A DNA stretch of 37,094 bases. Source: an uncultured Bacilli bacterium (GTDB lineage Bacteria > Bacillota_I > Bacilli_A > RF39 > UBA660). Shown here piece after piece: positions 3,694 through 25,101 of this stretch; the first letter of the stretch is position 1, and each line of letters starts with the position of its first letter. Location: contig CANQYK010000006.1 in the NCBI GenBank assembly GCA_947628065.1, positions 1 through 37,094 on the forward strand, given 5' to 3'. The position numbers and the translations under genes were made by a program. The notes beneath the pieces are model-generated. The model saw only the letters and a list, made by a program, of their open reading frames with translations, was not told the origin of the DNA and made no database searches.

Positions 3694-3697
3694 AGCT

Positions 3698-4645: not shown

Positions 4646-4665
4646 TAGTGCAAGAGGTGTTCATT

Positions 4666-5602: not shown

Positions 5603-5654
5603 TCTTTTTGCTTTTCGCAAGATTAGCAATTAGGTTATTTCCATAAGAAAAAAG

Positions 5655-5700: not shown

Positions 5701-5731
5701 CTTTTTATGAAGTCGTAAGACAAATAAAAAG

Positions 5732-5863
5732 GCAACAATATTACATTATGAAATTTTGTAATATGTTGCTTAATTGGGTTTCCAAAGGATCACCTTTGGC
5801 ACACGATATCTAAGTTGGCTCTGCCGACTTAGTAGTGTGTTACCTACTTGTCATAAAGTAGGT
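5732..5863 (+). other. oriT: MobV-type origin of transfer (oriT) with hairpin array
   Basis: TAGTGTG followed by TTA at 5833-5842 matches the nick region of pMV158-type (MOBV) origins, TAGTGTG/TTA; the expected nick is between 5839 and 5840 on the plus strand. As in that family, GCACAC (5799-5804) and a hairpin (CTAAGT...ACTTAG, 5810-5832) lie immediately upstream, and an inverted repeat (ACCTACTT/AAGTAGGT, 5842-5863) lies immediately downstream. Two more hairpins precede it: a 13-bp stem with one bulge at 5732-5769 and CCAAAGG/CCTTTGG at 5782-5799. The MobV relaxase encoded at 7759-9039 would act here. It lies more than 1.8 kb from that gene, with three cargo genes between. Confidence 0.8.
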
Positions 5864-5882
5864 TATTTCCAAAATCCATTAG

Positions 5883-6377: not shown

Positions 6378-6386
6378 TCAATTTCC

Positions 6387-7184
6387 TCAATTCAGTATTT
6401 TTACTTTCTTTTTTATTTCGTCGTATCCAGTATTATTAGTACAAATAATATCATAGTTATCTTTAAATGACTGTAGTCTTTCTTCTATATTTTCATCTAA
6501 AAAGCCTAATTTAAAAACATTTTTATTACCTTCTGCCATTTTTATATCTGAAATACTATTTCCAAGAAGGATTATATTACTTCTATTTTCAATTTTGCTT
6601 TTAATATTTTCTGGTAGAAATACCTCATTTTTATTCAAAGGATGGATTAAATTATTATCTTTCACACTTTTTACAATACCATTTTCATATTCTAGGAAAT
6701 TAGAGCATATATAAATATTTGGGTAATTACAATTATTCTTAATTAAAAATTGTTCAATAATATTTCCAACACCTGCTGATATTACAATTATAGGAATATT
6801 TTTATTATTCATTGCCTCTAAAAATTTAACTGCTCCAGTTCTAAAGTCCATAATACTTTCATTATTAGAAGCATAATTTATCATTTCTTCAGTAACATTA
6901 AAATTAATTAATGTTTCTATATTTTTTCTATACCACTCATTCATAATTGAATTTTTTTTAGCAATAGATAATGATTCATCTATTTCAAATTTGTGGTAAT
7001 GATTAAATATCTTTATGCATTCATTAACAAATTTTTTTGATACTTTAGGATTTTTAAAAATACTTGACCAAGAGCTATCACTATTATCCTTAGTAATTGT
7101 TCCATCAAAATCGGTTAAAATATATAAATCATTTGTTGAAATAGAATTTAATTGATTTAACTTTTCACTATTAACTATTATCAT
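6387..7184 (-). CDS. HAD-superfamily phosphatase, UMPH-1/pyrimidine 5'-nucleotidase-like
   Basis: The 265-residue protein has HAD motif I at 25-31 (DFDGTIT, nucleophile Asp25), motif II at 135-138 (ISAG) and motif IV at 208-213 (GNSISD). The stretch SAGVGNIIEQFL followed by YPNIYICSNFLEYENGIVKS and an LIHPLNKNE segment matches the UMPH-1 (cytosolic 5'-nucleotidase III) pattern more than other HAD groups, so the probable reaction is dephosphorylation of a nucleoside monophosphate. This subfamily is better known from eukaryotes. It lies between the NUDIX and CYTH-like genes as mobile-element cargo. Substrate is unproven. Confidence 0.75.
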   Translation of the reverse strand: MIIVNSEKLNQLNSISTNDLYILTDFDGTITKDNSDSSWSSIFKNPKVSKKFVNECIKIFNHYHKFEIDESLSIAKKNSIMNEWYRKNIETLINFNVTEEMINYASNNESIMDFRTGAVKFLEAMNNKNIPIIVISAGVGNIIEQFLIKNNCNYPNIYICSNFLEYENGIVKSVKDNNLIHPLNKNEVFLPENIKSKIENRSNIILLGNSISDIKMAEGNKNVFKLGFLDENIEERLQSFKDNYDIICTNNTGYDEIKKKVKILN

Positions 7185-7214
7185 AATTTTTCACCACTTT
7201 CATATTGCTAAGCA

Positions 7215-7697
7215 TTAAATATAGTATTCTTCATCTTTAAATGTAAAATTATATTTTTCATTAGCCATTTTTATTGCGTCATCAATTAATTGATTACCTG
7301 CTAAATCTTGATAATTTAGATATTTTTTTACATTAATTTGCTTAGACATAAATCTTCCATATACTTTTCCATTATCTATATCAGGTTTAATGTTACCAAC
7401 ATTTTTAATCTTTGCAATCATTCTAACTTGTGCATACTTTTCTTGTTTTTCCTCAACTAACAAATAACCTAAGTAATGAATATTTTCTAGTTCAATATTT
7501 AATTCTTCTATATATTCTCTTTTTAAAGTGTCACAAAAATTATTATCACTATTTTCTGGTTTTCCACCTGTTAATTTATAGCTATCATTATCAATTCTCA
7601 ATAGTACATTTCCATCATTAGAGAAAACAACACCATATACTTGTTTAACCAAAAGTTCTTTTGGTACTGATTTTTTAATCCAAGTATATCTAACCAT
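7215..7697 (-). CDS. NUDIX hydrolase
   Basis: 160 residues with a NUDIX box: GGKPENSDNNFCDTLK followed by REYIEEL at 60-66, which keeps the metal-binding RExxEE core, while the first conserved Glu of the box is Asn. Preceding strands (VYGVVFSNDGNVLLRI) fit the fold. Such enzymes cleave nucleoside diphosphates linked to another moiety. The gene starts 61 bases after the MobV stop in the same direction and is followed 30 bases later by the HAD gene. Cargo with two further nucleotide-handling proteins suggests a common nucleotide-related task, not yet known. Confidence 0.85.
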   Translation of the reverse strand: MVRYTWIKKSVPKELLVKQVYGVVFSNDGNVLLRIDNDSYKLTGGKPENSDNNFCDTLKREYIEELNIELENIHYLGYLLVEEKQEKYAQVRMIAKIKNVGNIKPDIDNGKVYGRFMSKQINVKKYLNYQDLAGNQLIDDAIKMANEKYNFTFKDEEYYI

Positions 7698-7758
7698 AAA
7701 ATCACCCCAACATTTCTATTTTATTATATCAAATTTCTCGATTTTTCGATAGATGTTA

Positions 7759-9039
7759 CTACAAACTTATTTCAAAATCATCTTTATCTCTATCATTATG
7801 AGATTTTTTGCTAGTTTTTAAATAATTAGGTATATTAGCATAATCAAACAACTCATCTTCTTTTGTTGTACCTTTAGAAATATCCTTAACATCATACATA
7901 TCAAAATCTTGATTATCATAATAGTCTTTTATTTCACTTGTAGTGGCTTCTTTTGTCTTGTCATTACCAATTTGTAGTAATTCTCTAAAAAAGTGCTTAA
8001 TTGCTTCTAAAATGGCTTTAATATAGGATTTTAGATTATCATTTTCTTCTGTAAGATTATGATTTCTAGTTTTTAAAGATTTTATTTCTCTTTGCATATT
8101 TTGATTTTCTTTTTCTAATGATTGATGACTTTTAGTATAAGTATCAACTTCATTAAATAAGGATTCTAATTTTGGTTGAAATTCTATTGTTTTTTTAGTT
8201 TCTTTAATTACATTTTGCATACTATCAAAGGTATCTTTTCTAACTTTCACATATTCTTTATCAATAATAGTATTTTTAGTAGTTTTCATTTTTTCTTCAA
8301 AGTCATTCATTGCATTATCTAGTCTTTTATTGATAGTTTCAACCTTATTTTCATAATATCTAGTCGTTTTTTTAAATTCTCGTACTTTTTGATGTTTAGC
8401 ATTACTGCCTTTAATTCCTCGTTCTAGATCATAACCTTTTTCTCTTAATCTATCGTTATAAATATCTTGTAATTGTGATAGGTGCAATTTGTCTTTAATA
8501 TATTGTTTTTTAGAAATAGTGTATCTTTCAGTATTTGTTCTTTTATCTAATTTTTTAACAAGTGGTACAACAACACAATGAATATGTGGTGTTGCCTCAT
8601 CTAAGTGGAGAGTTACGTGTAAAACTTGCTCTTTAGTATAACCTAAATCGTTATAAACAAAGTCCATACAAGTATTTGCCCATTCCAAAATGAAATCTTT
8701 GTTTTTATCTTTAAAAAACTTATTTGTAGCTGTAAAAAGTAATTCATCAGCAACAACACTTTTAGATTTATTTAACATTTCACTATAACTTCTTTTTCTA
8801 TCATCACGTTCAATTTTTTGTTTTTCTTCGTGTTGTTTTCTATATTCTTTTGTAAGATTATGAAACCCTTTTACATATTTTTCTTTTAAAGGTACTAATT
8901 CTATATTATTTTTAGTTAATTCTAATTTGATGTTAGGATTGCTTTTATAAGCCTTTTTCTCACGTTTATTATGAGAACCTATTTGTGCTAAATCATTTAA
9001 AGTCATAATAGGTTCACTTCTAAATATTCCATAATTCAT
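7759..9039 (-). CDS. mobV: MobV-family relaxase (Pre/Mob)
   Basis: 426 residues. The N-terminus has the MOBV signature IGSHNKRE (His23 corresponds to the catalytic histidine region of pMV158 MobM) and the metal-binding motif HLDEATPHIH at 145-154. The C-terminal half is a long coiled coil (about 215-345), as in other MobV proteins. The enzyme nicks oriT and pilots the DNA strand during mobilization by a helper conjugation system. Its substrate should be the oriT at 5732-5863, which has the matching TAGTGTG/TTA site. GAGG lies upstream of the ATG. In the circular form of the element, the integrase gene would lie just upstream in the same direction. Confidence 0.9.
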   Translation of the reverse strand: MNYGIFRSEPIMTLNDLAQIGSHNKREKKAYKSNPNIKLELTKNNIELVPLKEKYVKGFHNLTKEYRKQHEEKQKIERDDRKRSYSEMLNKSKSVVADELLFTATNKFFKDKNKDFILEWANTCMDFVYNDLGYTKEQVLHVTLHLDEATPHIHCVVVPLVKKLDKRTNTERYTISKKQYIKDKLHLSQLQDIYNDRLREKGYDLERGIKGSNAKHQKVREFKKTTRYYENKVETINKRLDNAMNDFEEKMKTTKNTIIDKEYVKVRKDTFDSMQNVIKETKKTIEFQPKLESLFNEVDTYTKSHQSLEKENQNMQREIKSLKTRNHNLTEENDNLKSYIKAILEAIKHFFRELLQIGNDKTKEATTSEIKDYYDNQDFDMYDVKDISKGTTKEDELFDYANIPNYLKTSKKSHNDRDKDDFEISL

Positions 9040-9073
9040 TTATCATTCCTCACTTTCTTTGTTATTTATCAAT

Positions 9074-9105
9074 CAAAAAAAGATATGCTTTTTTAATTGC
9101 ATACC
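9074..9105 (-). terminator. minus-strand terminator upstream of mobV
   Basis: On the minus strand GGTATGC (9105-9099), a 10-base loop and GCATATC (9088-9082) pair over 7 bp with one G-U, followed by seven T. It lies in the 300-bp gap between mobV and attR. In the excised circle it would fall about 90 bases after the extended integrase stop codon at 9192, in the right direction to end that transcript. In the integrated form it may attenuate transcription into mobV. Confidence 0.65.
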
Positions 9106-9191
9106 TTAAACAGCTAATTTCAATTTAAATAATAATATTTTTGATATATAGTTTTATATTAGTATCTGCTTTTAGAACGAAACAGAATAAC

Positions 9192-9335
9192 TTATTTTAA
9201 AGCTGATACATATATTTCAAAACCAATATCATTTTCGTTATATAACTTTGAATTTAAGTTAATTATAGTATTGTTTATCATACCTTTATAATGTATTAAA
9301 TCTACAATATTTTTAGTTGGTGCTATTATGTACGT
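9192..9335 (-). other. 47-codon open frame that would extend the integrase across attP in the circular element
   Basis: Reading the minus strand leftwards from the core (ACC at 9338-9336), the frame continues ACG TAC ATA ATA... for 47 codons to a TAA at 9194-9192. It is in the same frame as the integrase C-terminus when the two ends are joined at GGT. The predicted segment begins TYIIAPTKNI and ends EIYVSALK. In the integrated state this stretch is separated from its gene by the whole element and has no start of its own. Confidence 0.6.
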
Positions 9336-9353
9336 GGTAGACATATTCCAGGA
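9321..9353. other. attR of the inner element (core GGT 9336-9338)
   Basis: Element sequence TGCTATTATGTACGT ends at the core GGT, and AGACATATTCCAGGACAA continues the host recombinase (RHIPGQ). With attL this gives attB AAATCA-GGT-AGACAT and attP TACGT-GGT-CAGCTT. The target codes for the conserved SG-x-IPG-x-x-PFGY motif of the host recombinase. Confidence 0.8.
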
Positions 9354-10688
9354 CAAAGACCATTTGGCTATATGAAATCAGAAGATAAGAAAATGATTGT
9401 TGATAATGCTACAAAACCCTATGTAGAAAAGATATTTGATATGTATTTAGAGGGAAAAAGTTTTCAAACAATTGCTAATTACTTTAATGAAAATAATATT
9501 TATCCTAAAAAGAAATGGAAAGATACAACAATTCAAAAAATTATTGATAATAAAATCTATATGGGTGATTATGAACAATGGAAACGAATTGTCAAAAAAG
9601 AAAATTTACAACCAATTATTTATATGAATGTTGTTGAGCCAATTATATCTCGTGCCAAATGGGAAGATTGCCAAAGACAAAAAGAAATAAATCAAAGAAC
9701 TTATACAAGAGATAGAATTTATACTTTCTTTCAAAGACTAAAATGCCCTAATTGTGGTCGTATTATGAAATGCAAAGGTTCTGGTGGTAAGAAAAGAAAG
9801 TATATGTATTACACTTGTGAACATTGTCACATTAACTTTAATGAAGATTATGTTGAAAGATTATTAAAAGATTTTATTTATGATTTATTAGAATATGATA
9901 TGGCAGTCAAAAAGTTTTTCTTGCCTATTTTAGAAGATAAAACAAATAATTTAGATACAACAACCATTGATAAAGAAATCAAAAATTTAGAAAAACAAAG
10001 AGATAGAATTAAAAATGCTTATATTAAAGGTATTGTAGAAATAGAAGATTTTAAAGAAGATTATAAACTTATTGAAGATAAAATTGCTAACCTTGAAAGT
10101 AAAAGGCTTGAACTTGTTGACCTAGAAACTTTTAACTACTCTCCTCATGAATTACTTGCAGAAAGAGATGTAGAAAGAGAAAAAATGATAAGACTTGATA
10201 CTTTAAATACTTTGTTAAAAAGTAAATGGAATAGTATGGAAAAGTTTGAAAAACAGGAATTTATATCTAAATTTATTGATACTATTGAGATTAAAAAAGA
10301 TGATAAAGGTAATTATTTACTTGAAAAAATCAACTTTAGAAAAGGCTTTATTAAAGAATTAATTAAATTTTATGAAGCAGGAATATTTGATGTTGCTATA
10401 CCTGTAATGGTAGGAAATGAAGAACAATATATTAAAGGTGGCAGAATGACACAGGAACAACTAGATAAATATTTAAATAAAATGAACGACTATTTTGAAA
10501 CATCTTTCTATGAAATGTATGAATCAAGTGATAGCAAAGATGATGAAATAATTTATGAATATACACCAAAATATAATGAAAAAATTGTTAGATTTGTTGT
10601 CATTTCTAGCGATAGTAATTTTCCTATTTCAAAGGAAAGTATTAAAGAAAAATACGGAATTGTAAGTTATAAAAAAGAAAGGATTTGA
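9336..10688 (+). pseudogene. large serine recombinase (outer element), 3' part
   Basis: From the core GGT (9336) the frame reads GRHIPGQRPFGY and continues to a stop at 10688. It contains the recombinase domain (IFDMYLEGKSFQTIANYFNE), a zinc ribbon (LKCPNCGRIM ... YYTCEHCHINF) and a coiled-coil region (about 190-250 of this part). Joined at the core with 315-779 it gives an uninterrupted 604-codon gene of typical length. No stop or frameshift besides the insertion is visible, so excision of the inner element should restore a working gene. The internal ATG at 9372 lacks a good ribosome binding site, so a separate fragment is unlikely to be made. Confidence 0.9.
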
Positions 10689-10694
10689 TAAATT

Positions 10695-11048
10695 ATGAAT
10701 ATAAAATATAAAAAATTTGGAGATTATCTATTACCAAATTTAGTAATAGATAATCAAAATAATAAACAAATTGGAAAGTATGGATATTTAAGATTGACCT
10801 ATATTAAGCAAAATAAAAAGGCGTTATATCAATCATTATTAATGAAAAATGAACTAACTAATCATCTTTTTTCAGTCAGTAATGAATGTGAAGAAAGACT
10901 AAAAACTTTAATGGATAATTATATAAAAAATGATGACAGACTATCTGAAAAAAATAAAGAAACTAATCAAATTGAATGGGTAAAATTGATGAATAATTAT
11001 AAGCTAATTGCTGAAGAAATTATCTTAAAGGAGATTGTCTATGTTTAA
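10695..11048 (+). CDS. tnpV: TnpV-like transposon protein
   Basis: 117 residues with the TnpV pattern: KKFGDYLLPNLVI near the start, KYGYLRLTYIKQNKKALYQS, and a helical C-terminus (WVKLMNNYKLIAEEIILKEI). TnpV genes follow the tnpX recombinase gene in Tn4451-like elements, and this one follows the interrupted recombinase with a gap of six bases. Function in the family is not established. Its position supports the view that the recombinase and tnpV were one operon before the insertion. Confidence 0.8.
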   Translation: MNIKYKKFGDYLLPNLVIDNQNNKQIGKYGYLRLTYIKQNKKALYQSLLMKNELTNHLFSVSNECEERLKTLMDNYIKNDDRLSEKNKETNQIEWVKLMNNYKLIAEEIILKEIVYV

Positions 11049-11100
11049 TTTTTCTCATAAGCGAGCAACGTGTTGGTACTCCCACCACATTATTTTGAAA
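11049..11100 (+). other. candidate oriT of the MOBP relaxase
   Basis: The gap before the relaxase gene holds AAGCGAGCAACGTG followed by TTGGTACTCCCACCA, an imperfect inverted repeat, which is where origins of transfer lie in related elements. The ten bases around TACTCCCAC (11077-11085) recur at 197-205 near the left edge of the window. No nick site can be assigned with confidence. Confidence 0.35.
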
Positions 11101-11115
11101 GGCTAAACCTTAACT

Positions 11116-12420
11116 ATGGCTACAACATCAATTTGGAGTATTAAAAATAATTTAAAGCAATCTATAAATTATATCATCAATCCGGAAAAAACTATCAATG
11201 AAGATTATGGGAAAATAGAAAATTATAATTATCTTGAACTTGATAAAGAATACAATTTTAAGTTAGAAAAAACTCGCTATGTAAGTTGTTTAAATTGTGA
11301 TGAAGACGATCCATATAATGATATGGTGTTTACAAAAGATATTTTCAATAAGAAAGATGGAATTCTTGCTTATCATGGTTATCAATCTTTTAAGGAAGGA
11401 GAAGTGACAGCAGATATTGCTCACGAAATTGGAGTTAAGTTTGCAGAAGAAATGTTTAAAGATTATGAAGTGGTTGTAGCAACTCATCAAAATACAAATC
11501 ATATTCACAACCATTTCATAATCAACTCTGTTTCATTTAAGAATGGAAAGAAATACAATAACAATAGAACAAATCTAGCAAAATTAAGACATATATCAGA
11601 TTCTTTATGTGCAGAATATGGATTAAATGTTTTAGATGAAGATATAGGCTATAAAAGTACCTTTAATCACAAAGTTATTGATAATGATTATTATAAAACT
11701 TTAAAAGAAGATTTAGATAATGTAATAAGTTATTCAGTTACTCTTAGACAAGTAATGGATAGAATGAAATTATTAGGATATAAAACTTATTCTCGTAATA
11801 ATGTCATAACTATTTATAGAGATAATTGTGATAAAGTACGAATTGAAAAAGTATTTGGTGATGAATATTCAAAAGATAGAATAAATGAACGACTATATTT
11901 ATCAAGGCAAATTGTATTTAAACCTATGTCACATAAATCTATATTTGAAGAATATTCTAAAAATAACAAGACTCATAAAGGTATATATGGTTTATATTTA
12001 TACTATTGTTATTTACTAGGAGTATTTCCAAAAAATCATCCAAAACAATATCTTCCTTATTCTATAAGACAAGAAATAAAAAAGTTAGATGATTTTTCTG
12101 AACAAGTTAGATTTATGGCTAATAACAAAATTGAAACAATTGAAGATTTAGAAATTTTCTCTAAAACTAACTATGAAGAATATAGAAACCTTATGGGGGA
12201 AAGAGAAAATCTTTGGAAAAGATACCATAGGGCAAAAACTACCGAAAAACAATCTGAAATACTTGCTGAAATAAATGATATTCAACCTAAAATAAAAGAA
12301 CTTCGTAAATATGATAATTACTGCAAAAACATTAGAAAACAATCTGAATCTATGCAAAATAATATTAATAATTTTGATAAAGATATCCAAAAAGAAAAAG
12401 ACAATTCTAGAATTCTCTAA
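11116..12420 (+). CDS. MOBP-type relaxase (relaxase/mobilization nuclease domain)
   Basis: 434 residues. The N-terminus MATTSIWSIK...SINYIINPEKT is typical of relaxases of Tn1549/CTn-like elements (Tyr19 in the catalytic tyrosine region). Residues 85-140 contain AYHGYQSFKEGEVTAD and the three-histidine motif HQNTNHIHNHFIIN (His129, 131, 133). The C-terminal third is helical. It would nick the outer element's oriT, probably the short gap just upstream. GAAAGG lies 14 bases before the ATG, a weak site. The stop codon lies inside the strong terminator at 12395-12435. No VirD4 or T4SS genes are in the window. Confidence 0.88.
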   Translation: MATTSIWSIKNNLKQSINYIINPEKTINEDYGKIENYNYLELDKEYNFKLEKTRYVSCLNCDEDDPYNDMVFTKDIFNKKDGILAYHGYQSFKEGEVTADIAHEIGVKFAEEMFKDYEVVVATHQNTNHIHNHFIINSVSFKNGKKYNNNRTNLAKLRHISDSLCAEYGLNVLDEDIGYKSTFNHKVIDNDYYKTLKEDLDNVISYSVTLRQVMDRMKLLGYKTYSRNNVITIYRDNCDKVRIEKVFGDEYSKDRINERLYLSRQIVFKPMSHKSIFEEYSKNNKTHKGIYGLYLYYCYLLGVFPKNHPKQYLPYSIRQEIKKLDDFSEQVRFMANNKIETIEDLEIFSKTNYEEYRNLMGERENLWKRYHRAKTTEKQSEILAEINDIQPKIKELRKYDNYCKNIRKQSESMQNNINNFDKDIQKEKDNSRIL

Positions 12421-12435
12421 CTAGATTGTCTTTTT
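12395..12435. terminator. bidirectional terminator between relaxase and nucleotidyltransferase genes
   Basis: AAAAAGACAAT (12395-12405) and ATTGTCTTTTT (12425-12435) form an 11-bp stem extended by CTAG/CTAG. With A and T tracts on both sides it serves the convergent genes on both strands. Confidence 0.8.
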
Positions 12436-13200
12436 CTATTCAGCACTACTCCTAATAACTAAATTATTAATATCAAAATTCGTAAATTGACTTAGAAAAT
12501 ATTTATATAAATCCTTTGCACAAACAAATTTTTTATCATAATTTTTTTCGTCTAAACATTTAATAACTTTTGTAATAAATTCCTGATCAGGTAATTTTTT
12601 GACATTATATTTTTTTCTATAATCATTATTTTTAAATATAATTTCTATTTTATTTAAAGGAATAGATGGTATCTGTTTATTATAAAAATAAGAATCTAAT
12701 ACCCTTTGCAAAAACATATAATAACTAAAATCTATGTCTTCATGATTATTATATTTAGCTTCTAGTTCATCAAATCCATCCCAAACAGAATAACAATTCA
12801 TTTTAAATTTAAAATCATCTATATCTGCAAGATTAGTCAACATAGAATTGTTTTTAGCAATATTAATTAATTCATTTATAGTACCATCTTTATCATATAG
12901 TATTTTAGCATTAACAAAAATCATTGTTGTAGACATATGATAATCCTGAAGTTCTTTTTCCATATAAGATAGAATTTTTTTCTTAGGATTTATAAAATAT
13001 TCAATTAAAAATCCATCTATATTTTTATTACCTCTTTCTCGCCATTTCGTGTCATCAGTGGTAACAATATAAATATCTATATCACTATTCTCGTTATTAT
13101 TACCTGTTGCGTAACTTCCAGTTAAAATAGCCCCTAAAAAGTAATCTTCATTCTTATATTTGTCTAAAAACTTTTCAATAGCTAGTTTCCATTTATTCAT
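12436..13200 (-). CDS. nucleotidyltransferase-domain protein (Pol beta fold)
   Basis: 254 residues. The N-terminal domain has the nucleotidyltransferase signature GAILTGSYATGNNNENSDID (Gly-Ser, then Asp-x-Asp) followed by IYIVTTDD, the pattern of aminoglycoside and related small-molecule nucleotidyltransferases. The rest is a helical domain of unknown specificity (YYMFLQRVLDSYFYNK). It likely transfers a nucleotide onto a small molecule or a protein. It begins 19 bases after serS stops, with AGGTG before its ATG and no terminator between, so it could be expressed from the serS T-box promoter. Whether it belongs to the chromosome or came with the adjacent mobile element is not clear. Confidence 0.75.
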   Translation of the reverse strand: MNKWKLAIEKFLDKYKNEDYFLGAILTGSYATGNNNENSDIDIYIVTTDDTKWRERGNKNIDGFLIEYFINPKKKILSYMEKELQDYHMSTTMIFVNAKILYDKDGTINELINIAKNNSMLTNLADIDDFKFKMNCYSVWDGFDELEAKYNNHEDIDFSYYMFLQRVLDSYFYNKQIPSIPLNKIEIIFKNNDYRKKYNVKKLPDQEFITKVIKCLDEKNYDKKFVCAKDLYKYFLSQFTNFDINNLVIRSSAE

Positions 13201-13219: not shown

Positions 13220-14500
13220 TTATTTTATTACTTTTAAGCCACCCAAATATGGTCTTAATACTTCTGGAACAGTTATGCTTCCATCTGCATTTTGATATTG
13301 TTCTACAATTGCAGGTACTAATCTACTTGTTGCAAGTCCACTACCATTTAAAGTACAAGCATAATGTAAATTTCCTTCTTCATCACGATACTTTGTGTTG
13401 TTTCTTCTTGCCTGATAATCTCTACTATTAGATACACTACTTACTTCTTTATAAATTCCCATACTTGGAATCCACACTTCTATATCATAAGTTCTACACA
13501 TACCTTGAGCGCAATCTCCAGCAGCAAGTTTACTAACTTGATAATGAAGTCCTAAACTTTTCATAAGTCCTTCTGCAATATTTAAAAGTTCGTTAAATGC
13601 TTCTTCAGTTTTATCTTCAGTAACATATTGTACCATTTCAACTTTATTAAACTGATGACCTCTTATAGTTCCTCTTTCTTCTTCACGAGAACTTCCTGCT
13701 TCAACCCTAAAACATTGAGTGTAAGCAAAGTATTTCTTTGGTAATTCATTAATATCCATTATTTCATTACTATGAACATTAACAAGTCCTGTTTCAGCAG
13801 TAGGTAAAAGAAATTTTTGATTTTTTTCACCAGTTTCTTCATCTTGAATCATATAAACTTCATCATTAAATTTTGGAAATTGTCCTGCGCCAAAACCACA
13901 TTCATATTTTAACATATAAGGTAACATCATAAATTGGAATCCATTTTTCAAATGAGTATCAATAAAATAATTTATTAAAGCCCATTCAAGTCTTGCTCCA
14001 ATTCCTGTGTATATCCAATTCTTTTCTCCAGCAATTTTTGTTCCTCGTTCATAATCAACCATATTTAAGTCTTTTAATATTTCATAATGAGGTTTTATTT
14101 CAAAATCAAATTTAGGTTGTTCCAAATTAGTACTTAAAACTTCATTGTTTTCTTTTCCACCAGCTGGAACATCATCATCAGGAGTATTAGGTAGTCCTGC
14201 TAAATAATCGAATATTTTTTTATCTAATTCATTATATTTAACCATTCCTTCATCTATTTTATTACCTAATTCTTTCATTTGTTCTACTATTTTGGTAGTA
14301 TCTTTTCCTTCTTTTTTCATTTGTGGAATAGTATCGCTTACTTTTCTTCTTTCAGCACGATATTCGTCCATCAAAGTACCAATTTTTCTTTTTTCTTTAT
14401 CCCACTCTAAAAGTTCATCTAAATTAACATTATTCATTCTTTTTAATAATGCTTTTTCTACTTCTTCTTTATTATTTCTAATTCTATTTATATCTATCAT
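13220..14500 (-). CDS. serS: seryl-tRNA synthetase
   Basis: 426 residues, the normal length. The N-terminal coiled-coil arm (about 25-100) binds the long variable arm of tRNA-Ser. Class II motifs are present: motif 2 (FRVEAGSSREEERGTIRGHQ, then FNKVEMVQY) and motif 3 (LNGSGLATSRLVPAIVEQYQ). It charges tRNA-Ser with serine in the cytosol. AGGAGG precedes the ATG. The gene is preceded by a T-box leader with its own promoter, so it should be induced when uncharged tRNA-Ser accumulates. The gene is intact and belongs to the stable chromosome. Confidence 0.97.
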   Translation of the reverse strand: MIDINRIRNNKEEVEKALLKRMNNVNLDELLEWDKEKRKIGTLMDEYRAERRKVSDTIPQMKKEGKDTTKIVEQMKELGNKIDEGMVKYNELDKKIFDYLAGLPNTPDDDVPAGGKENNEVLSTNLEQPKFDFEIKPHYEILKDLNMVDYERGTKIAGEKNWIYTGIGARLEWALINYFIDTHLKNGFQFMMLPYMLKYECGFGAGQFPKFNDEVYMIQDEETGEKNQKFLLPTAETGLVNVHSNEIMDINELPKKYFAYTQCFRVEAGSSREEERGTIRGHQFNKVEMVQYVTEDKTEEAFNELLNIAEGLMKSLGLHYQVSKLAAGDCAQGMCRTYDIEVWIPSMGIYKEVSSVSNSRDYQARRNNTKYRDEEGNLHYACTLNGSGLATSRLVPAIVEQYQNADGSITVPEVLRPYLGGLKVIK

Positions 14501-14841: not shown

Positions 14842-15336
14842 TCAATTTTTGACTATCCATTCACCTTTTTTAGTAGCACCAGTTCTTTCAATTAGTCCTT
14901 TTTCTATAAGTATTTTTATATTTCTTTGAACAGTTCTAATATTAATACCTAATAGTTTTGACAAAACCTCTTGTGTAATAGTTGGTGAATCTGACATTAA
15001 ATTAATAATGGATTTTTGAGTTTCAGTTAATTCAGCAATTTCATTTGCTTCTTCTCTAAATTTATCTTTATTAAATGGAAAAGTAACTCTAATAAAATTA
15101 GGAAAAAATTCAAATGATTTTTTATCATAACTTTGAAGTATTCTTATTATACCTGTACCCATTTGTTCAACTAAATCTAAATCATTAAATACTTTCATTA
15201 ATTCTTTATTTTTAGGTAATGAATATCCTTCTAAAAATTCTTCTTTTGTAGTAGATGGTTGAATGCCACCATTTGACGATATTACCAATTTATCACTAAA
15301 CATTTCAAATTTTGGAGCATATTCATTGGACCAATC
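14842..15336 (-). pseudogene. AlbA_2/ATP-binding regulator, 3' part (interrupted by RIT element)
   Basis: From the ATTATG duplication the frame reads DWSNEYAPKFEMFSDKLVIS, then SNGG and VEQMGTGIIRIL, the C-terminal part of the HATPase_c_4-like domain, and ends in a winged helix-turn-helix (TETQKSIINLMSDSPTITQE, then GINIRTVQRNIKILIEKGLI). The family consists of Schlafen-AlbA_2 proteins that act as regulators. The 164 codons here and the 270 codons at 18793-19602 join in frame at His-Asn to give a 434-codon gene. A separate product could start at an internal ATG (15303), but no good ribosome binding site is visible. Confidence 0.88.
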
Positions 15337-15339
15337 ATT

Positions 15340-15424
15340 ATGTTATGAGAAGAAAAAAATTATGAGAAGTTGGACTAAGAAAGTCTTTTTTTATGGACTT
15401 TTTTCTTTATTTAGCTTCTCATAA
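15340..15424 (+). repeat. left terminal inverted repeat of RIT element
   Basis: 85 bp matching the reverse complement of 18685-18769 with one visible mismatch (TTGGAC versus TTGTAC). It contains the 10-bp unit TTATGAGAAG at 15343-15352 and 15360-15369 and its inverse at 15415-15424. A small hairpin with a T tract (AAGTC/GACTT, 15381-15405) inside may insulate the element from host transcription. The inverse unit overlaps the -35 position of the recombinase promoter (extended -10 TGTTATAAT ending at 15442), which suggests autoregulation. Confidence 0.9.
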
Positions 15425-15478
15425 TAATATTATTGTTATAATATTCTTCGTGTTTCACACAAGAAGGAGATGATATAA

Positions 15479-16705
15479 ATGAATACACAAGAGTATATTG
15501 ATTTCATACCTAAATTTATTAAAAAACTTAATGATGATGGTATGAGTAAAACCGTGATTGGTACAGCAGAATGGATTACTAATCATTTTAAAAAATACTG
15601 TTTAAAAAATGGTATTAATTTTGTAGATATGGAGGTGATAAAAACATTTTATGATGAACAATATGATTTTGATATTTATGATTTAAAATATAATTATCAA
15701 ACTGTTTTAAGAAGACCTATGTTAATATTAATGGAATATTATGAAACTGGCAATTATTTTAAAACTCATCAAAAATCTGTATCATTAAATATTCCACTTG
15801 AATATTCTGATGTTTATCATTTAATACAAAAAGAATATATAAATGTTTTAGATAATTCAATTAAATCTAAGAAAAGGAAATTATGGACTGTTGCTAATTT
15901 GATGAATTATTTATACGAAAATAATATAACAGATTTCAAAGATGTACAAATTAGTAATATTTCAAACTATATTGATTTAATTTCTAAAAGATATGCAAAA
16001 GAGACTGTAAGACTTATAAAATCAGTTTTAAGGGAAGTGTTAAATTGGTTATATCAAAAAAATATTGTAAATTTTAATGGAAAACAAGCATTTCCAATAA
16101 TAAGGAAAGATACTAGAGACAAACTGTTATCAACTTATAGTGAAGAAGAAATTAAAAAAATATTAGATGCTATTGATAATTCCAATAGTTATGGAAAATG
16201 TGCTTATTTGGTTATTTCATTATTAGCTTATTATGGATTAAGGGTTGGAGATATTATAAATTTAAAATTTGAGAATATTGATTTTGAAAAAAATAGTATA
16301 AAAATTATTCAACAAAAAACAGATAAGGAGCTAGTATTACCATTAATTGACGAAGTTAAATTTCCTCTTTTAGATTATTTGAAAAATGGAAGAAATCCTA
16401 GTGTTGATGAGGAATATATACTTTCAACTATGCATGCACCATATACTAAATTTAATAACACTTCATCAATACATCGTATGGTTACTAGAGCAATGAAAAT
16501 TGCTGGAATTAATTTTGAAAATAAGCATCATGGATCACATGCTTTAAGGCATAGTTTAGCAACTAATATGATTAATAATAATGTCCCAATAAGTGCTATA
16601 AGTAATGTTTTAGGTCATTCGAGTTCTAAAACTACAAATATTTATATAACTAAAGATACAACACATTTGAGAGAATTAACATTGGAGGTACCTTATAATG
16701 ACTAA
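15479..16705 (+). CDS. ritA: tyrosine recombinase A of RIT element
   Basis: 408 residues, first of three. The catalytic domain has Arg I in YYGLRVGDIINL, the beta-hairpin lysine region IIQQKTDKELVLPL, HALRHSLATNMI (H-x-x-R), VLGHSSSKTT (second His) and the nucleophile Tyr in TNIYITKDT. The N-terminal half is a helical core-binding domain of unusual length. AAGGAG precedes the ATG, and a TGTTATAAT extended -10 lies 37-45 bases upstream. It overlaps the next gene by 8 bp. All catalytic residues are present, so the enzyme should be active. Confidence 0.88.
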   Translation: MNTQEYIDFIPKFIKKLNDDGMSKTVIGTAEWITNHFKKYCLKNGINFVDMEVIKTFYDEQYDFDIYDLKYNYQTVLRRPMLILMEYYETGNYFKTHQKSVSLNIPLEYSDVYHLIQKEYINVLDNSIKSKKRKLWTVANLMNYLYENNITDFKDVQISNISNYIDLISKRYAKETVRLIKSVLREVLNWLYQKNIVNFNGKQAFPIIRKDTRDKLLSTYSEEEIKKILDAIDNSNSYGKCAYLVISLLAYYGLRVGDIINLKFENIDFEKNSIKIIQQKTDKELVLPLIDEVKFPLLDYLKNGRNPSVDEEYILSTMHAPYTKFNNTSSIHRMVTRAMKIAGINFENKHHGSHALRHSLATNMINNNVPISAISNVLGHSSSKTTNIYITKDTTHLRELTLEVPYND

Positions 16706-17681
16706 AGATAAAGATCTTGAATTTAAAAGTATATTTAAAAAAGAGCTATCACAATTTATTATATATAAAAGAAGTAATGGATATAAATATTCAAAGCCAA
16801 TAATTTATAGATTTCATGAATTAGATAGATTTTTTTTATCATTAGATAATAATACTAAATTTATAAATCAAGAAATAGTTGATAAATGGCTTAGTACTTG
16901 CAATATTAATAATAAAGAATCTACTAAGGGTAAATATTTTTCAGTAATTTCTCAATTCTGCGATTTTTTAAGAATGAATGGATATGAAAATATAATTAAA
17001 CCAGATACAAATAAATTAAAATTTCACAGCGATTTTATACCCTATATTTTTACTGATGAAGAAATAAAAAGAATGTTTAAATTATTAAATGATAAATTAA
17101 AAATAAATAAAAATTTAGACACATATTCATTTTATATTTTGATGTGTTTATATTATTGCTGTGGTCTTAGATTAAATGAAGCTTTAAATTTAAAAATAAG
17201 TGATTATAACACTTATGAAAAAACTATTACAATTTTACAAAGCAAAAATAATATTACTAGAATTATTCCTTTATCTGATTCAATAAATAATTTGATTATT
17301 GAATATTTGAACTTTAGAAAATCAAATAATGAATATTTATTTATCACTGATAATAATGTTAAATACTATAAAAGTAAACTATATGAAAAATTCCATTGGT
17401 TATTAAAAAATGCAAAAATACCAGTTAGGTATGATGGAAAAAGGCAAAGAATACATGACCTACGTCATACTTATGCAGTAAATAGTCTAAAACAAATGCA
17501 AAAAAGAGGTTTTGATTTATATACATCATTGCCTATTTTGTCAGTTTATTTAGGACATAAAAATATTACTGAAACTGAGTACTATCTTAGACTTATTGAA
17601 AGTGAGGCTGAAAATATATCAAAAATTACAAGTAATTATTTAAAAAATATATATAATAAGGAGACATTTTATCATGAGTAA
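16698..17681 (+). CDS. ritB: tyrosine recombinase B of RIT element
   Basis: 327 residues. Catalytic motifs: YYCCGLRLNEALNL (Arg I), ILQSKNNITRIIPL (Lys region), RIHDLRHTYAV (H-x-x-R), YLGHKNITETEYYLRL (His and nucleophile Tyr). Starts within the last 8 bp of the first gene and overlaps the third by 8 bp, so the three are translated as one coupled unit. GGAG of the site lies in the preceding codons (ATTGGAGGTACC). Confidence 0.88.
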   Translation: MTKDKDLEFKSIFKKELSQFIIYKRSNGYKYSKPIIYRFHELDRFFLSLDNNTKFINQEIVDKWLSTCNINNKESTKGKYFSVISQFCDFLRMNGYENIIKPDTNKLKFHSDFIPYIFTDEEIKRMFKLLNDKLKINKNLDTYSFYILMCLYYCCGLRLNEALNLKISDYNTYEKTITILQSKNNITRIIPLSDSINNLIIEYLNFRKSNNEYLFITDNNVKYYKSKLYEKFHWLLKNAKIPVRYDGKRQRIHDLRHTYAVNSLKQMQKRGFDLYTSLPILSVYLGHKNITETEYYLRLIESEAENISKITSNYLKNIYNKETFYHE

Positions 17682-18678
17682 AAATTTGAATTATTATATT
17701 TCTAAATATTTTGCAGATTATCTTCCAAATGTAAAAGGCGTTTCAAAAAATACAATTAATTCTTATAGAGATACTTTTGTCTCATTATTAAATTATTTAA
17801 AGAATGTCAAAAAAATGAATATTAATAATAATTTACCATTAAATTCTTTGGATAATAAATTAATAGAGGAATATCTAATATATTTGGAAGAAGAACAAAT
17901 GAATAGTATTTCAACTAGAAATCAAAGGTTAGCCGCAATTCGTTCATTCTATAAATATCTAAAAAATAGAGAATTATCTTGTTTTGAAATTTGTTCTAAC
18001 ATCCAATTAATTCCAAACAAAAAAACTCATAAAAAAATATTATCATATTTTTCAATCGACGAAATAGAAATTTTGATTAATTGTCCTAATACTAAAGAAA
18101 AAAACGGATTTAGAGATTACGTGTTATTACTTTTTATGTATGAAACGGCATGTAGAGCTCAAGAATTAGCTGATTTAACTTTAAAACAACTAAATTTAAA
18201 TAATCATTCATTTGTTGTATTAAAAGGTAAAGGAAACAAAGAGAGAAATATTCCTTTAACTAATGATTTAAAGTGTTTGTTGTTAAAATATTTAAATGTA
18301 TTTTCTATAACTAATAATGATGAATATGTATTTTTGAATAAATCAAATAATAAATTTACTACAAAAGGTATAGAATATATTTTAAAAAAATATATTAATA
18401 TTGCAAAATCAAAATATCCATCAAAATTTAAAAATGAATATTCTAATCATAGTATGAGACATTCAAGAGCTATGCATTTACTTGAATCTGGAGTTAATTT
18501 AATATACATTCGAGATATACTTGGACATACATCTGTAGTAACAACGGAAATTTATGCAAAAACAAATCCAATTATTAAAGAAAAACAAATCTTAGAACAT
18601 AGCAAAAAGCTAAATGCAACTGATAAATATTCTGAAAATGAAAAAGAAGATTTATTAAAATTTTTACAAGAATTGTAA
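17674..18678 (+). CDS. ritC: tyrosine recombinase C of RIT element
   Basis: 334 residues, most similar of the three to Xer-like recombinases. The N-terminal SAM-like domain (NTINSYRDTFVSLLNYL) is followed by the catalytic domain: TACRAQELADLTL (Arg I), VLKGKGNKERNIPL (Lys), NHSMRHSRAMHLLE (H-x-x-R), ILGHTSVVTTEIYAKT (His and nucleophile Tyr). AAGGAG precedes its ATG inside the second gene. The stop lies 6 bp before the right inverted repeat. Confidence 0.88.
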   Translation: MSKNLNYYISKYFADYLPNVKGVSKNTINSYRDTFVSLLNYLKNVKKMNINNNLPLNSLDNKLIEEYLIYLEEEQMNSISTRNQRLAAIRSFYKYLKNRELSCFEICSNIQLIPNKKTHKKILSYFSIDEIEILINCPNTKEKNGFRDYVLLLFMYETACRAQELADLTLKQLNLNNHSFVVLKGKGNKERNIPLTNDLKCLLLKYLNVFSITNNDEYVFLNKSNNKFTTKGIEYILKKYINIAKSKYPSKFKNEYSNHSMRHSRAMHLLESGVNLIYIRDILGHTSVVTTEIYAKTNPIIKEKQILEHSKKLNATDKYSENEKEDLLKFLQEL

Positions 18679-18684
18679 TTATTA

Positions 18685-18769
18685 TTATGAGAAGCTAAAT
18701 AAAGAAAAAAGTCCATAAAAAAAGACTTTCTTAGTACAACTTCTCATAATTTTTTTCTTCTCATAACAT
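18685..18769 (-). repeat. right terminal inverted repeat of RIT element
   Basis: Matches 15340-15424 in inverse orientation with one visible mismatch. It holds TTATGAGAAG (18685-18694) and its inverse at 18740-18749 and 18757-18766. Unlike the left end, it is followed by 23 further element bases that include the palindrome at 18773-18792. Confidence 0.9.
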
Positions 18770-18772
18770 CAA

Positions 18773-18792
18773 TTATCAGAAGCTTCTGATAA
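18773..18792. repeat. 20-bp perfect palindrome at the right RIT end
   Basis: TTATCAGAAGCTTCTGATAA is two inverted copies of a one-base variant of the repeat unit TTATGAGAAG. It abuts the ATTATG flank. In a circular form of the element, CTTCTGATAA, ATTATG and TTATGAGAAG would adjoin, giving inverted 10-bp arms around a 6-bp centre. Confidence 0.85.
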
Positions 18793-19602
18793 ATTATGAA
18801 CTATCGCATTTACTACTGCCTCTCTTACTGCTGCAAAATCATACATTCTAATTTCTTTTCTTTCAGGATATTCTATTTTTGTAAATATCTTATTTTCAAT
18901 TTCTATCTTATTTAAAATATTCTTTGTTGCTTTAACAATAGAACAATTACCAAAATCTTCATTCTCAATTAAATCAACAGCATTAGTTCCTTCGTATTTA
19001 CCAAATCTAATAGATATTGTATTATTATCAGCAAGTAAATAAGCATTATAATTATACTTACCATCATCAGTATATAAGTCTAATTGCTTTAGGAAATTAT
19101 TATTAATATTAAAGCCTTTTTCTTCGTAATATATTTTTAGTTGGCTAAAAGTTAAGTCTTGCTTAGGGGATACTATATTTCTTAATGAAGTTCTTGTTCT
19201 TTTATTAACTCTATTATTAATCATATCATAAGGCATACTTTGTATTGAACTACCAACTCTAATAAAACAACTATCAGGTGTCATTCCCATACCTTTAATA
19301 TAATATGGATCATCACTACCACGAGCAATAATTATTTTAATATATTTTTTACTGTTTTCTTCCAATACAATAACATCATATAATCCTAATGTAGATGGCA
19401 TTATATTATCTTTTATTCTATCTTTAATAGTTCTTTGTAATAAATCAATATTACCATTTATACCAACAATGTCACCTTTATCATTAACACCAAGATAAAT
19501 ATTACCACCATTAGTATTCAAAAATGATATGACTTCTTCTTCAAATTTATCTGTTAATTTAACTTTAAATTCATTTCTTACATCTTCAATTACATCTATC
19601 AT
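18793..19602 (-). pseudogene. AlbA_2/ATP-binding regulator, 5' part (interrupted by RIT element)
   Basis: The start at 19602 is chosen from AGGAGG 7-12 bases upstream; the longer frame to 19659 runs through the promoter. Residues 1-130 form the Schlafen AlbA_2 domain (NEFKVKLTDKFEEEVISFLN, then TNGGNIYLGVNDKGDIVG, and DSCFIRVGSSIQSMPYDMI). The later part leads into the ATPase-like domain (RMYDFAAVREAVVNAIVHN). The reading then enters the RIT end and stops after eight foreign residues. A truncated protein of about 278 residues with an intact AlbA_2 domain but no winged helix could still be made. It is divergent from the nuclease gene and preceded by a repeat cluster. Confidence 0.88.
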
Positions 19603-19630
19603 AATTTTACCTCCTGATTTTTGTAATCTA

Positions 19631-19676
19631 ATTATACCATGTCGTAAGAAATGTCGCAAGAAAATGCCATAAGAAA
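19631..19676 (-). promoter_or_regulatory. regulator promoter with three direct repeats
   Basis: On the minus strand an extended -10 box, TGGTATAAT (19639-19631), precedes the AlbA_2 gene. Directly upstream lie three repeats read on the plus strand as ATGTCGTAAGAA (19639-19650), ATGTCGCAAGAAA (19651-19663) and ATGCCATAAGAAA (19664-19676). They occupy the -35 position, so bound protein would either block or replace -35 recognition. Confidence 0.75.
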
Positions 19677-19842: not shown

Positions 19843-19866
19843 AATTATCAAAAAGAGGTGGTAACT

Positions 19867-21303
19867 TTGAAAATTAGTGAAAAGCTTAATTTAAATAAAA
19901 GTCAATTTGAACTTGATTTTGTTGATATAGATATAGATAAGGATTTACCTTTATTTATTGATTCAAATTTAATAAGAAAATACGACAGCGAGTTTAATGC
20001 AAAATTATCAGATACTATGGATTCATTTTTTACTTATTTATTAAATACTCTATCGAATGGAATGGATGAACAAGCAAAGTATCTTTGTTCACATTTAAGT
20101 GAAATAAACGAAACTCATTTAGGATTATCAAAGGGTATATCGCAAGGAAAAGGAGTTGGACCGATAAGTGCTATAAAAATATTTGAAGGATTAAAAAGTA
20201 GTCAAGCCATTGAAAATGGTGTATTAGAAAATATAGAAGATTTGAGAGTTTTAGTTCATGGATTTGATAAAGATATGCTTTCAGATATGTTAACCAATAT
20301 ACTAAAAAAACATTTGCTAGACTATACAATTGAACAATGTGAGCTTCTTAATATAACAACTACACATAGTGTTCCATCTGGCTACTTTTGGAACGAGAAG
20401 ATTTGTCAATGGGAAAACGAATATACTGATAGATTAATTATAGATAATAAGCCAATATTATTAGTACCAAAAAAAATAGTTAATTACTCTTTAGATGGTT
20501 CAAGTTATCAATATAAACAACATTTTGTGCTTAATTACCTACAAGAAGAAAATATAAAAAATAGAACTAGTTTAGTACGACAAAGAAAGAAATCAAAAGA
20601 ATTATTTGTAACAAAAAAGGATATTGTTGAAAAAGAACCGACTATGGATAAAGATTACCTTAGTAATTTTACCATGAAGTATCCAGAAATTTTTGAAAAA
20701 TTTAAAAAAGATATGCTTAACAGTTCAACACCAATGAGTGGGAATATTTTAGATACAATAGATATAAATACAATATGTAACATATTATTAAACAAATTAG
20801 AAAGTATACCTACTGGAAGTAATGCTGCATCCAATTTTCACAATTTAATGATTGGTATTTTTGAATTACTATTATATCCAAATTTAATAAAACCCAAAAA
20901 AGAATTAGAAATTAACGAAGGAAGGAAACGTATTGATATATGTTTTACAAACGTATCAGAAAGTGGATTTTTTACCTATGTTCCAGATAAAGTAAATATT
21001 CCTTGTCCATTAGTTTTTATAGAATGTAAAAATTATAGTAAAGATGTTGTTAATCCAGAACTAGACCAATTAATTGGAAGATTTAGTACACGCAGAGGAA
21101 GATTAGGAATACTCTCTTGTAGAAGTATAGATAACGAAAACACATTTATTGCAAGATGTGCTGATACATATAAAGATGGCAATGGATTAATTATCCCAAT
21201 CACTGACAAAGATATTATTAGATGTTTAAAAAAAGGAATAGATTGTACAAAAGAATTTGAAGAAATTTTATTTGAAAAAAGTCAAAATGTTATAAAAGGA
21301 TAA
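19867..21303 (+). CDS. PD-(D/E)XK-type nuclease, candidate defence effector
   Basis: 478 residues from TTG at 19867, eight bases after GAGG; a GTG at 19858 overlaps that site and is less likely. The C-terminal domain has the restriction-endonuclease pattern of Mrr-like enzymes: a helix with Glu (IGIFELLLYP), RKRIDICF (Asp357), VFIECKNY (Glu386-x-Lys388), then NPELDQLIGRFSTRRGRLGI. The first 330 residues are not recognised; they include a glycine-rich SKGISQGKGVGPISAI segment. It probably cleaves DNA, perhaps phage DNA. No methyltransferase is nearby. It is divergent from the AlbA_2 regulator and shares repeat clusters with it, which suggests regulation by that protein, now disrupted. Confidence 0.7.
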   Translation: MKISEKLNLNKSQFELDFVDIDIDKDLPLFIDSNLIRKYDSEFNAKLSDTMDSFFTYLLNTLSNGMDEQAKYLCSHLSEINETHLGLSKGISQGKGVGPISAIKIFEGLKSSQAIENGVLENIEDLRVLVHGFDKDMLSDMLTNILKKHLLDYTIEQCELLNITTTHSVPSGYFWNEKICQWENEYTDRLIIDNKPILLVPKKIVNYSLDGSSYQYKQHFVLNYLQEENIKNRTSLVRQRKKSKELFVTKKDIVEKEPTMDKDYLSNFTMKYPEIFEKFKKDMLNSSTPMSGNILDTIDINTICNILLNKLESIPTGSNAASNFHNLMIGIFELLLYPNLIKPKKELEINEGRKRIDICFTNVSESGFFTYVPDKVNIPCPLVFIECKNYSKDVVNPELDQLIGRFSTRRGRLGILSCRSIDNENTFIARCADTYKDGNGLIIPITDKDIIRCLKKGIDCTKEFEEILFEKSQNVIKG

Positions 21304-23118: not shown

Positions 23119-24309
23119 TTATTGCAATTTTATAATTCTATCAACAAACTTAAGAGCAATTGGATCATTTTCAGCAATTAATACGGTATTATTATTTTTT
23201 ACTAATTTATCAAACATTAACATGACTTGTTCTATATTTTTTTCACCCAACCCTCGTACAGGATTATCAAATATATAAATGCTTCTATCTCCAAGTTTTT
23301 TGCAAAGTAATTTGGCTAGTTTAATTCTTTGACATTCTCCACCTGATAATGAATAAGAACTTTGATTTAATTTTAAATAATCTAGTCCAATGTCTTTCAA
23401 ATGTTTAATTCTTCTAATTAATAAAGGATTGTTTTGGTAAATATTTAAAGCTTCTAATACCGTAATATCTAAATTTTCATTTTTTAAGAATTTGCTTATT
23501 CCAAAATAGGTAGCTACTGTTGATCTGGAATTTTTAGATACTGGTGAAGCATCAATAATATGTGGTCTCCTGATGTAATTTTTATTTTTAACACTAACTA
23601 AATTTTTTCTTCGCTCACTAGCTCCTGTCGATTTATCCAAAGCTTTATATATTGCATCTAAATAAGTGCTTTTTCCACTTTTTTGTGGTCCTGTAATAGA
23701 AGTGATTTGATTTAAAAAAAGTAAAACTTTATAATTTTTAATATGTTCAAATTCACTATATTCGGCACTTATTTTTTTGTTTGATTTATTTTCTATTCTG
23801 TTAATCGTTATATTTGATAACTCTTTTAAATATTTTTCTCCTGTTGTTTCTTCTAATAAATAACCACCATTAAAACCAGATTCTGGACCAAAAATTAAAA
23901 CTTTATCTGCAATATTAAATATTTCTCTTCTATGTTCCACAACCACAATAGCATTGTTATTATTTGATAATTTTTTAATAAAATTTGAATATTGAATTGC
24001 CTCATCATTTGTCATTCCGGCAAGAGGTTCATCAATAACAATTAGAGTATTTTTTTCCTCTTTTAATTTAAGTAGTTCCATGATCTTTTTACTTGTATCA
24101 AAGATCTTTTGAGAGATTGATCGAACTTTATTTGGATAATTTTTAATATTACATTTTTCTTTCTTTACTAACGTTTCATAAGCAAAGGAACTTTTCCCAG
24201 AACCACTAGGTCCAGCACATACAGTAACTTTACCAAATTCTATATTTGTCGTAATATTTTTTAAATTGTTAACATGAGCATTTTCAATTTTTATGATATC
24301 ATTATGCAT
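23119..24309 (-). CDS. minimal UvrA-like double ABC ATPase
   Basis: 396 residues instead of about 940 for UvrA. The N-terminus IENAHVNNLKNIT and Walker A GPSGSGKSS (33-41), Walker B LIVIDEP (89-95) and the H-loop VVVEHRRE (about 126) form the first half. The second half has Walker A GPQKSGKST (207-215), the UvrA hallmark IIDASPVSKNSRSTVATYFG (251-270), signature SLSGGECQRIKLA (320-332) and Walker B IYIFDNP (344-350). Zinc modules and the UvrB-binding region are absent, and the first half has no signature motif. The second Walker B has Asn349 where UvrA has the catalytic Glu. It may sense damaged or drug-bound DNA or serve resistance or defence; repair by excision is unlikely. AGGAGG precedes the ATG. 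Confidence 0.82.
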   Translation of the reverse strand: MHNDIIKIENAHVNNLKNITTNIEFGKVTVCAGPSGSGKSSFAYETLVKKEKCNIKNYPNKVRSISQKIFDTSKKIMELLKLKEEKNTLIVIDEPLAGMTNDEAIQYSNFIKKLSNNNNAIVVVEHRREIFNIADKVLIFGPESGFNGGYLLEETTGEKYLKELSNITINRIENKSNKKISAEYSEFEHIKNYKVLLFLNQITSITGPQKSGKSTYLDAIYKALDKSTGASERRKNLVSVKNKNYIRRPHIIDASPVSKNSRSTVATYFGISKFLKNENLDITVLEALNIYQNNPLLIRRIKHLKDIGLDYLKLNQSSYSLSGGECQRIKLAKLLCKKLGDRSIYIFDNPVRGLGEKNIEQVMLMFDKLVKNNNTVLIAENDPIALKFVDRIIKLQ

Positions 24310-24390
24310 AAGATACCTCCTTGAATAAATTTTATCAAAACAAATAATAGTTGTAAATTCTTTGCTTAATTAAATTGTTTTTTTATTATC

Positions 24391-24406: not shown

Positions 24407-24429
24407 CATTGATAGAGAAAGGAAAAAAT

Positions 24430-25101
24430 ATGGATAATTTAAATATTACAGAAAAATATGCATTGTGTATGTTAAAAGAAAAAAAGACTTTGTATGAGAA
24501 GGAATTAACACCTTATTTGATTATATCTATGATCATAGAAATGATGCTGGAGGAAAATTTAGAAATTACGGATAAAAATAAGGTGGTATTAAAAAACAAA
24601 ATACCAACAGTAAGCTATAATATAAAACTATATGATGTTATAAAGGACATGAAGAAAAGTGAAGTGCCTTTAAAAAATATATTAACTTCTATTTGTTATG
24701 GTTTTTCAAGTAAAAAATTAAAAAGTATTATAGGCATATTAAAAGAAGATATGGTCAAGGATAAGCTTATCTTTTTTGAAACAAAAAAAGGACTCTTTGG
24801 TGAGAAAGAAATTATAAAAATAGATGAAATGAAATTTACTGCTATTATTAATGAAATAAAACAAGAATTTTTAGAAAAAGGAAACTTAGAAGAAGATTTA
24901 GTTTTACTAGCATCTTTACTAGATTCTACAAAATTCTTAAAGAATATTTTTAACAAATACGAAAAAGAAACATTAGATAGTAGGTTAAAGGAAATAGAAA
25001 AAACAGAAATAGCCAAAAAAATAAAAGTAGCACAGATAGTGATAAGAAATATGTCAGCAACCGTAACAGCAATGATGATTAATGCTTCTAGACCAGTATA
25101 A
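24430..25101 (+). CDS. GPP34-like (GOLPH3-type) protein
   Basis: 223 residues from ATG at 24430 after AAAGGA. The sequence is helical and follows the GPP34 pattern: NITEKYALCMLKEKK, LIISMIIEMMLEENLEITDK, KVVLKNKIP, a helix-rich middle with LKEDMVKDKLIFFETKKGLF, and a late LVLLASLLDSTKFL segment. GPP34 proteins bind phosphoinositides in eukaryotes; the bacterial role is unclear. It is followed 28 bases later by the metallopeptidase-like gene and probably forms an operon with it. The family call is tentative. Confidence 0.55.
   Translation: MDNLNITEKYALCMLKEKKTLYEKELTPYLIISMIIEMMLEENLEITDKNKVVLKNKIPTVSYNIKLYDVIKDMKKSEVPLKNILTSICYGFSSKKLKSIIGILKEDMVKDKLIFFETKKGLFGEKEIIKIDEMKFTAIINEIKQEFLEKGNLEEDLVLLASLLDSTKFLKNIFNKYEKETLDSRLKEIEKTEIAKKIKVAQIVIRNMSATVTAMMINASRPV

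Follow-up and report, generated by a model that had tools for sequence, protein, structure and literature searches.

Mini-UvrA, a 396-residue UvrA-family protein with apparently one complete ATP site, encoded in a mobile-DNA-rich region of a Bacilli genome

Contig CANQYK010000006.1 of an uncultured Bacilli bacterium (RF39; UBA660) encodes a UvrA-like protein of 396 residues, and the question raised by this locus is how much of the UvrA machinery such a protein, here called mini-UvrA, has kept, whether it could still work as an ATPase and, if so, in which role. We analysed the gene and its surroundings in a stretch of 37,094 nucleotides (the window); all features are collected in Table 1.

A UvrA core reduced to 396 residues

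The sequence-only reading of this locus as encoding a UvrA-like protein is confirmed: the reading frame is intact, starting with ATG and running for 396 codons without a stop, and the best family match by far is UvrA (TIGR00630, E 2.2e-62), as is the best match in the PDB (E 2.9e-53), both in separate pieces. The NCBIfam UvrA score, 211.5 bits, lies far below the cut-off of 729.8 bits. Structure prediction, proposed earlier as a check, returned the UvrA core fold over the full length. The AlphaFold model (pLDDT 78.5, pTM 0.60), based on an alignment with two plasmid-record rows left out, could be aligned over 384–391 of the 396 residues with experimental structures of class I UvrA and of UvrA2; the best of these gave 387–391 aligned residues at Z 28–31, the first non-UvrA ABC protein followed at Z about 22, and the best 38 Foldseek rows were all UvrA. 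Chance resemblance is excluded because the fold match spans the entire protein. In the model, two ABC ATP-binding domains are placed as in UvrA, and in the sequence Q-loop II is followed by the UvrA-type RS-x-x-ATY segment (RSTVATY, 262–268). Judged by its predicted fold, mini-UvrA is an intact UvrA-family double ABC ATPase that corresponds over its whole length to the ABC core of UvrA. Stripped to 396 residues, it represents an unusual form of a known protein.

Alignment with ordinary and class II UvrAs revealed neither the UvrB-binding domain, nor the insertion domain, nor the helical signature domain I in mini-UvrA, and no CxxC cysteine pairs of the zinc modules are present. The zinc modules and UvrB-binding parts had already been called missing from the sequence; the insertion domain is now added to them. 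Some 400 UvrA residues are replaced by about 22, which form a strand, Q67 and a helix (residues 61–82) and probably, although this is uncertain, include Q-loop I. Around Q67 the AlphaFold model has a Q-loop-like strand followed by a loop, with a pLDDT of about 50 there, and the best match of the segment is the Q-loop region (NIKN-P...Q) of L023, a UvrA-like protein discussed below, with a score that alone does not separate Q-loop I from a signature I remnant.

The gene is preceded by a Shine-Dalgarno-like motif and a promoter-like site, the latter being a consensus match only, in a region with 18 such sites against 12.7 expected in shuffles. The GC content per codon position (0.35, 0.29, 0.14) resembles that of the neighbouring genes.

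Table 1. Features of mini-UvrA and of its neighbourhood, in window coordinates
Feature	Position	Strand	Basis or remark
Mini-UvrA-like ABC protein gene, 396 aa	23119..24309	minus	ORF, family match, predicted fold
Walker A I, residues 33–40, GPSGSGKS, proximal site	24190..24213	minus	alignment
Probable Q-loop I (uncertain), residues 61–82	24064..24129	minus	replaces UvrA Q-loop I–Walker B I stretch
Walker B I, D93-E94 and neighbours (residues 93–96), kept	24022..24033	minus	homologue alignment
H-loop I, residues 125–127 (E-H126-R), kept	23929..23937	minus	homologue alignment
Walker A II, residues 207–214, GPQKSGKS, distal site, Gly210 to Lys	23668..23691	minus	homologue alignment
Q-loop II and RSTVATY segment, residues 251–268, Gln to Ala254	23506..23559	minus	homologue alignment
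Signature II LSGGE, residues 321–325, completes proximal site	23335..23349	minus	homologue alignment
Walker B II, D348-N349-P350, catalytic Glu to Asn	23260..23268	minus	Glu in 19/19 homologues
H-loop II, E380-N381-D382, switch His to Asn	23164..23172	minus	His in 19/19 homologues
Shine-Dalgarno-like AGGAGG	24316..24321	minus	sequence, directly upstream of the mini-UvrA ATG
Promoter-like site TTTACA-17-TAAAAT	24329..24357	minus	10/12 consensus match, TG before second hexamer
GPP34-domain protein gene (Golgi phosphoprotein 3 family)	24409-25101	plus	flanks mini-UvrA
481-aa PDC-M36A candidate defence protein	19858-21303	plus	PADLOC E 3e-37; phrog_27295 E 3.5e-87
Three tandem tyrosine recombinases (408, 327, 334 aa) inside AlbA_2/Schlafen-type gene	14842-19659		
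AlbA_2 gene, N-terminal half	18769-19659		
AlbA_2 gene, C-terminal half	14842-15303		
Second seryl-tRNA synthetase	13220-14500	minus	35% identity with the other SerRS of this genome, on contig C65

The two composite ATP sites

Each ATP site of UvrA is composite: ATP-binding domain I pairs with signature domain II in the proximal site, and ATP-binding domain II with signature domain I in the distal one (PMC6486640). Both Walker A motifs, the IIDASP...RSTVATY segment and the single signature motif previously noted in mini-UvrA are indeed there, and so is the Asn in place of the second-site catalytic Glu, a position at which all 19 comparable homologues carry Glu. What that reading had not seen is that the H-loop His and the Q-loop Gln are replaced as well, and that the losses are gathered on one composite site. 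The distal site combines Ala254, Asn349, Asn381, the Lys in place of Gly210 and the deletion of signature I; the proximal site is intact in the alignment (Walker A 33–40, D93, E94, H126 and LSGGE 321–325), none of its confidently aligned catalytic residues being lost. Because the catalytic losses all sit on the distal site, the alignment supports, more sharply than originally claimed, a protein that would keep one complete, working ATP site and has lost the other. Of the residues with a conservation of at least 90% among homologues, mini-UvrA retains 12 of the 13 in signature II, 24 of the 32 in ATP-binding domain I and 15 of the 25 in ATP-binding domain II, but over all conserved columns the contrast between proximal and distal retention is not significant (Fisher p 0.09) and is suggestive only.

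Mutants of full-length UvrA in the distal Walker A or Walker B motif lack the burst and have low ATPase rates on lesion DNA, and a slow proximal ATPase remains when the distal Walker B Glu is mutated (PMC6486640). A lone proximal site would therefore be slow.

Relatives, origin and genomic surroundings

Searches for other short forms, with the mini-UvrA protein alone and also with alignments as queries, found no second one in samples of its own genus (35 genomes, E 1e-26), order (385), class (395) and phylum (392), or in genome contigs, viral contigs (three scans), plasmids and phages. The matches examined were UvrAs of about 750–950 aa, double-length UvrAs, plain ABC ATPases and UvrAs cut by contig ends. 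Mini-UvrA, seen in one genome only, is the smallest UvrA relative found in the samples searched. One candidate for a short full-length relative (L008) was rejected as a 766-aa class II UvrA, and short UvrA frames in small genomes are apparently UvrAs with TGA taken as a stop; L025 and L028 become full UvrAs once TGA is read through. The double-length UvrAs in viral contigs (L033:2534-8419, 1961 aa; L041:2630-8152, 1840 aa) each contain four Walker A motifs and as many signature motifs.

An unnamed group of UvrA-like proteins of about 830 aa (L023, L038 and L050–L058) turned up in about 10 of 296 Bacilli genomes, as well as in viral contigs and on a plasmid from Leuconostoc; no conserved gene neighbours were seen. 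The signature I motif of this group is LSTGE, and Ala or Ser stands in place of the Q-loop II Gln, leaving the distal site half-degenerate. Its members have in common with mini-UvrA the motif I-D-A-[ST]-P-x-x-x-N-x-RSTVATY, a Phe before the site II Walker B Asp and the lack of a UvrB-binding domain, but they keep signature domain I, the zinc modules and the distal Glu and His, all of which mini-UvrA is without, and identity is only about 30–35%. The Q-loop II segment of mini-UvrA reads IIDASPVSKNSRSTVATY and thus displays the same derived loss of Gln, for which reason the group is its likely source; the comparison further suggests that the distal site was lost stepwise, with the approximately 830-aa proteins representing an earlier state. 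The clade uniting them has a support of 80/89 with all columns and 63/64 without the motif. However, the mini-UvrA branch, at 6.4 changes per column, is very long, and a class I or class II placement was not rejected by the AU test, so the phylogeny called for earlier does not confirm the grouping. A fragment alignment (A3) was dropped, MAFFT having set N-terminal fragments on the second unit. The sequence-only reading had allowed that homologues might retain the second-site Glu and that the protein might be a recent truncation of ordinary UvrA; homologues do retain it, but recent truncation is ruled out by the divergence of mini-UvrA (about 33% identity, very long branch). The host genome also has an intact ordinary UvrA (L024, 948 aa, contig C3).

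The region carrying mini-UvrA is accessory and rich in mobile DNA, and the closeness to mobile-element remnants and to a nuclease locus, pointed out earlier, is borne out by neighbouring gene matches. To the right, the contig carries native sequence, valS showing about 71% identity throughout the genus. No other genome of the genus gave a match to the flanking GPP34 gene, and the second SerRS, with no match at E 1e-80 among 34 other genus genomes, is an acquired paralogue that possibly provides protection against a SerRS inhibitor. The three tyrosine recombinases inside the split AlbA_2 gene resemble a recombinase-in-trio insertion, and the PDC-M36A candidate carries a stretch, FIECKNYS, resembling a restriction-type nuclease. 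Positions 1–13200 are dense in mobile-element remnants (serine recombinases, relaxases), among which lie a Nudix-like gene and a HAD-like one.

Possible function and comparison with known systems

On balance, we lean slightly towards mini-UvrA being a functional, miniaturised one-site ABC ATPase switch of the UvrA superfamily. Reduced to the double ATP-binding core and signature domain II, the protein would retain its distal P-loop as a non-hydrolysing, structural or nucleotide-holding element. UvrB loading would not be possible and the modules recognising lesions or drugs are absent, which argues that mini-UvrA is no repair or drug-sensing protein of a known type; residing on acquired DNA, it would most likely be a small ATP-gated accessory switch for a DNA or protein partner. 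Such a one-site design is workable, given the slow proximal ATPase that persists in the distal UvrA mutant and the ABC exporters with one degenerate site, which are a known working design (PMC12038006). A more detailed version, which we offer only tentatively, is that of a minimal one-site UvrA that has lost its sensing modules and become a standalone ATP switch and that possibly acts on the host UvrA or another nucleoprotein; living relatives with LSTGE and the Gln-to-Ala change would then show the intermediate stage in a stepwise loss of the distal site.

The main rival, a distinct possibility albeit not the one we would choose, is a gene in decay: an acquired gene of the UvrA-like kind would have lost its signature I block and zinc hairpin through in-frame deletions, and its distal site would now be eroding unselected. 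Its presence in one genome only, the extreme branch length and odd composition of the protein and its position in a mobile-element graveyard, next to a gene cut in two, would all fit decay, whereas 396 codons without a stop, intact promoter-like and ribosome sites, a normal codon-position pattern, a nearly perfect signature II and catalytic losses limited to one of the two sites speak against it. Decay keeps some probability because selection is not measurable on a single mini-UvrA sequence. The damage- or drug-sensing clamp envisaged by the sequence-only reading, a reduced counterpart of Ecm16 or DrrC, is unlikely. The predicted UvrA fold would suit it, as would the retained signature II, which together with the insertion domain makes most of the DNA contacts of UvrA (PMC7835731). 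Nevertheless, the parts that read damage or drugs, namely the insertion domain and the Zn3 hairpin, both of which contact DNA in UvrA (PMC7835731), are gone from mini-UvrA, and Ecm16 deprived of its insertion domain fails to bind DNA or to protect cells (PMC10192343).

The defence role once suggested for mini-UvrA takes location as its basis. A phage-defence ATPase partnering the PDC-M36A candidate (E 3e-37), which lies in the same accessory region about 1.8 kb away, is very improbable: the two genes are on opposite strands and separated by a gene for a membrane protein, conserved neighbours are lacking in the UvrA-like relatives, and the match to mad3 of the MADS defence system (PADLOC) is non-specific, since mini-UvrA (E 4e-34) scores about the same as a plain FtsE/LolD-type ATPase (9e-33) and ordinary UvrA far better (2e-101). 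MADS was rejected, and no mad match was found in the four neighbours scanned. We give still less credence to a regulator that forms mixed dimers with the full-length host UvrA and damps repair to the benefit of mobile DNA; the genome does retain an ordinary UvrA, and mini-UvrA keeps the ABC core adjoining the UvrA dimer groove, but no genetic link connects the two proteins.

UvrA's two ATP sites are coupled, and the contribution of each is still being worked out; with one site deleted and the other kept, mini-UvrA would be a ready-made natural test of the proximal site alone, and the proteins to which it is probably related, whose distal site is half-degenerate, form an uncharacterised group spread over a plasmid, viral contigs and Bacilli chromosomes. 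Besides the approximately 830-aa group, three kinds of known protein come closest to mini-UvrA. Ordinary class I UvrA, such as the host's own copy, likewise has two ABC units with the same composite sites, from which mini-UvrA differs by lacking the UvrB-binding domain, the insertion domain, all zinc modules and signature I, and by its replaced distal catalytic residues. Class II UvrAs of about 750–840 aa (Deinococcus UvrA2, PDB 2vf7; Ecm16, PDB 7sh1; DrrC) share the UvrA fold without a UvrB-binding domain, but retain the insertion domain and two zinc modules, along with both signatures and both catalytic sites. Finally, MsRv1273c/72c, BmrCD and CFTR, although not related to UvrA, combine one consensus with one degenerate composite ATP site, as mini-UvrA appears to do; in MsRv1273c, according to a figure legend, Asp497 and Gln528 of the degenerate site take the places held by Glu553 and His584 in the consensus site (PMC12038006).
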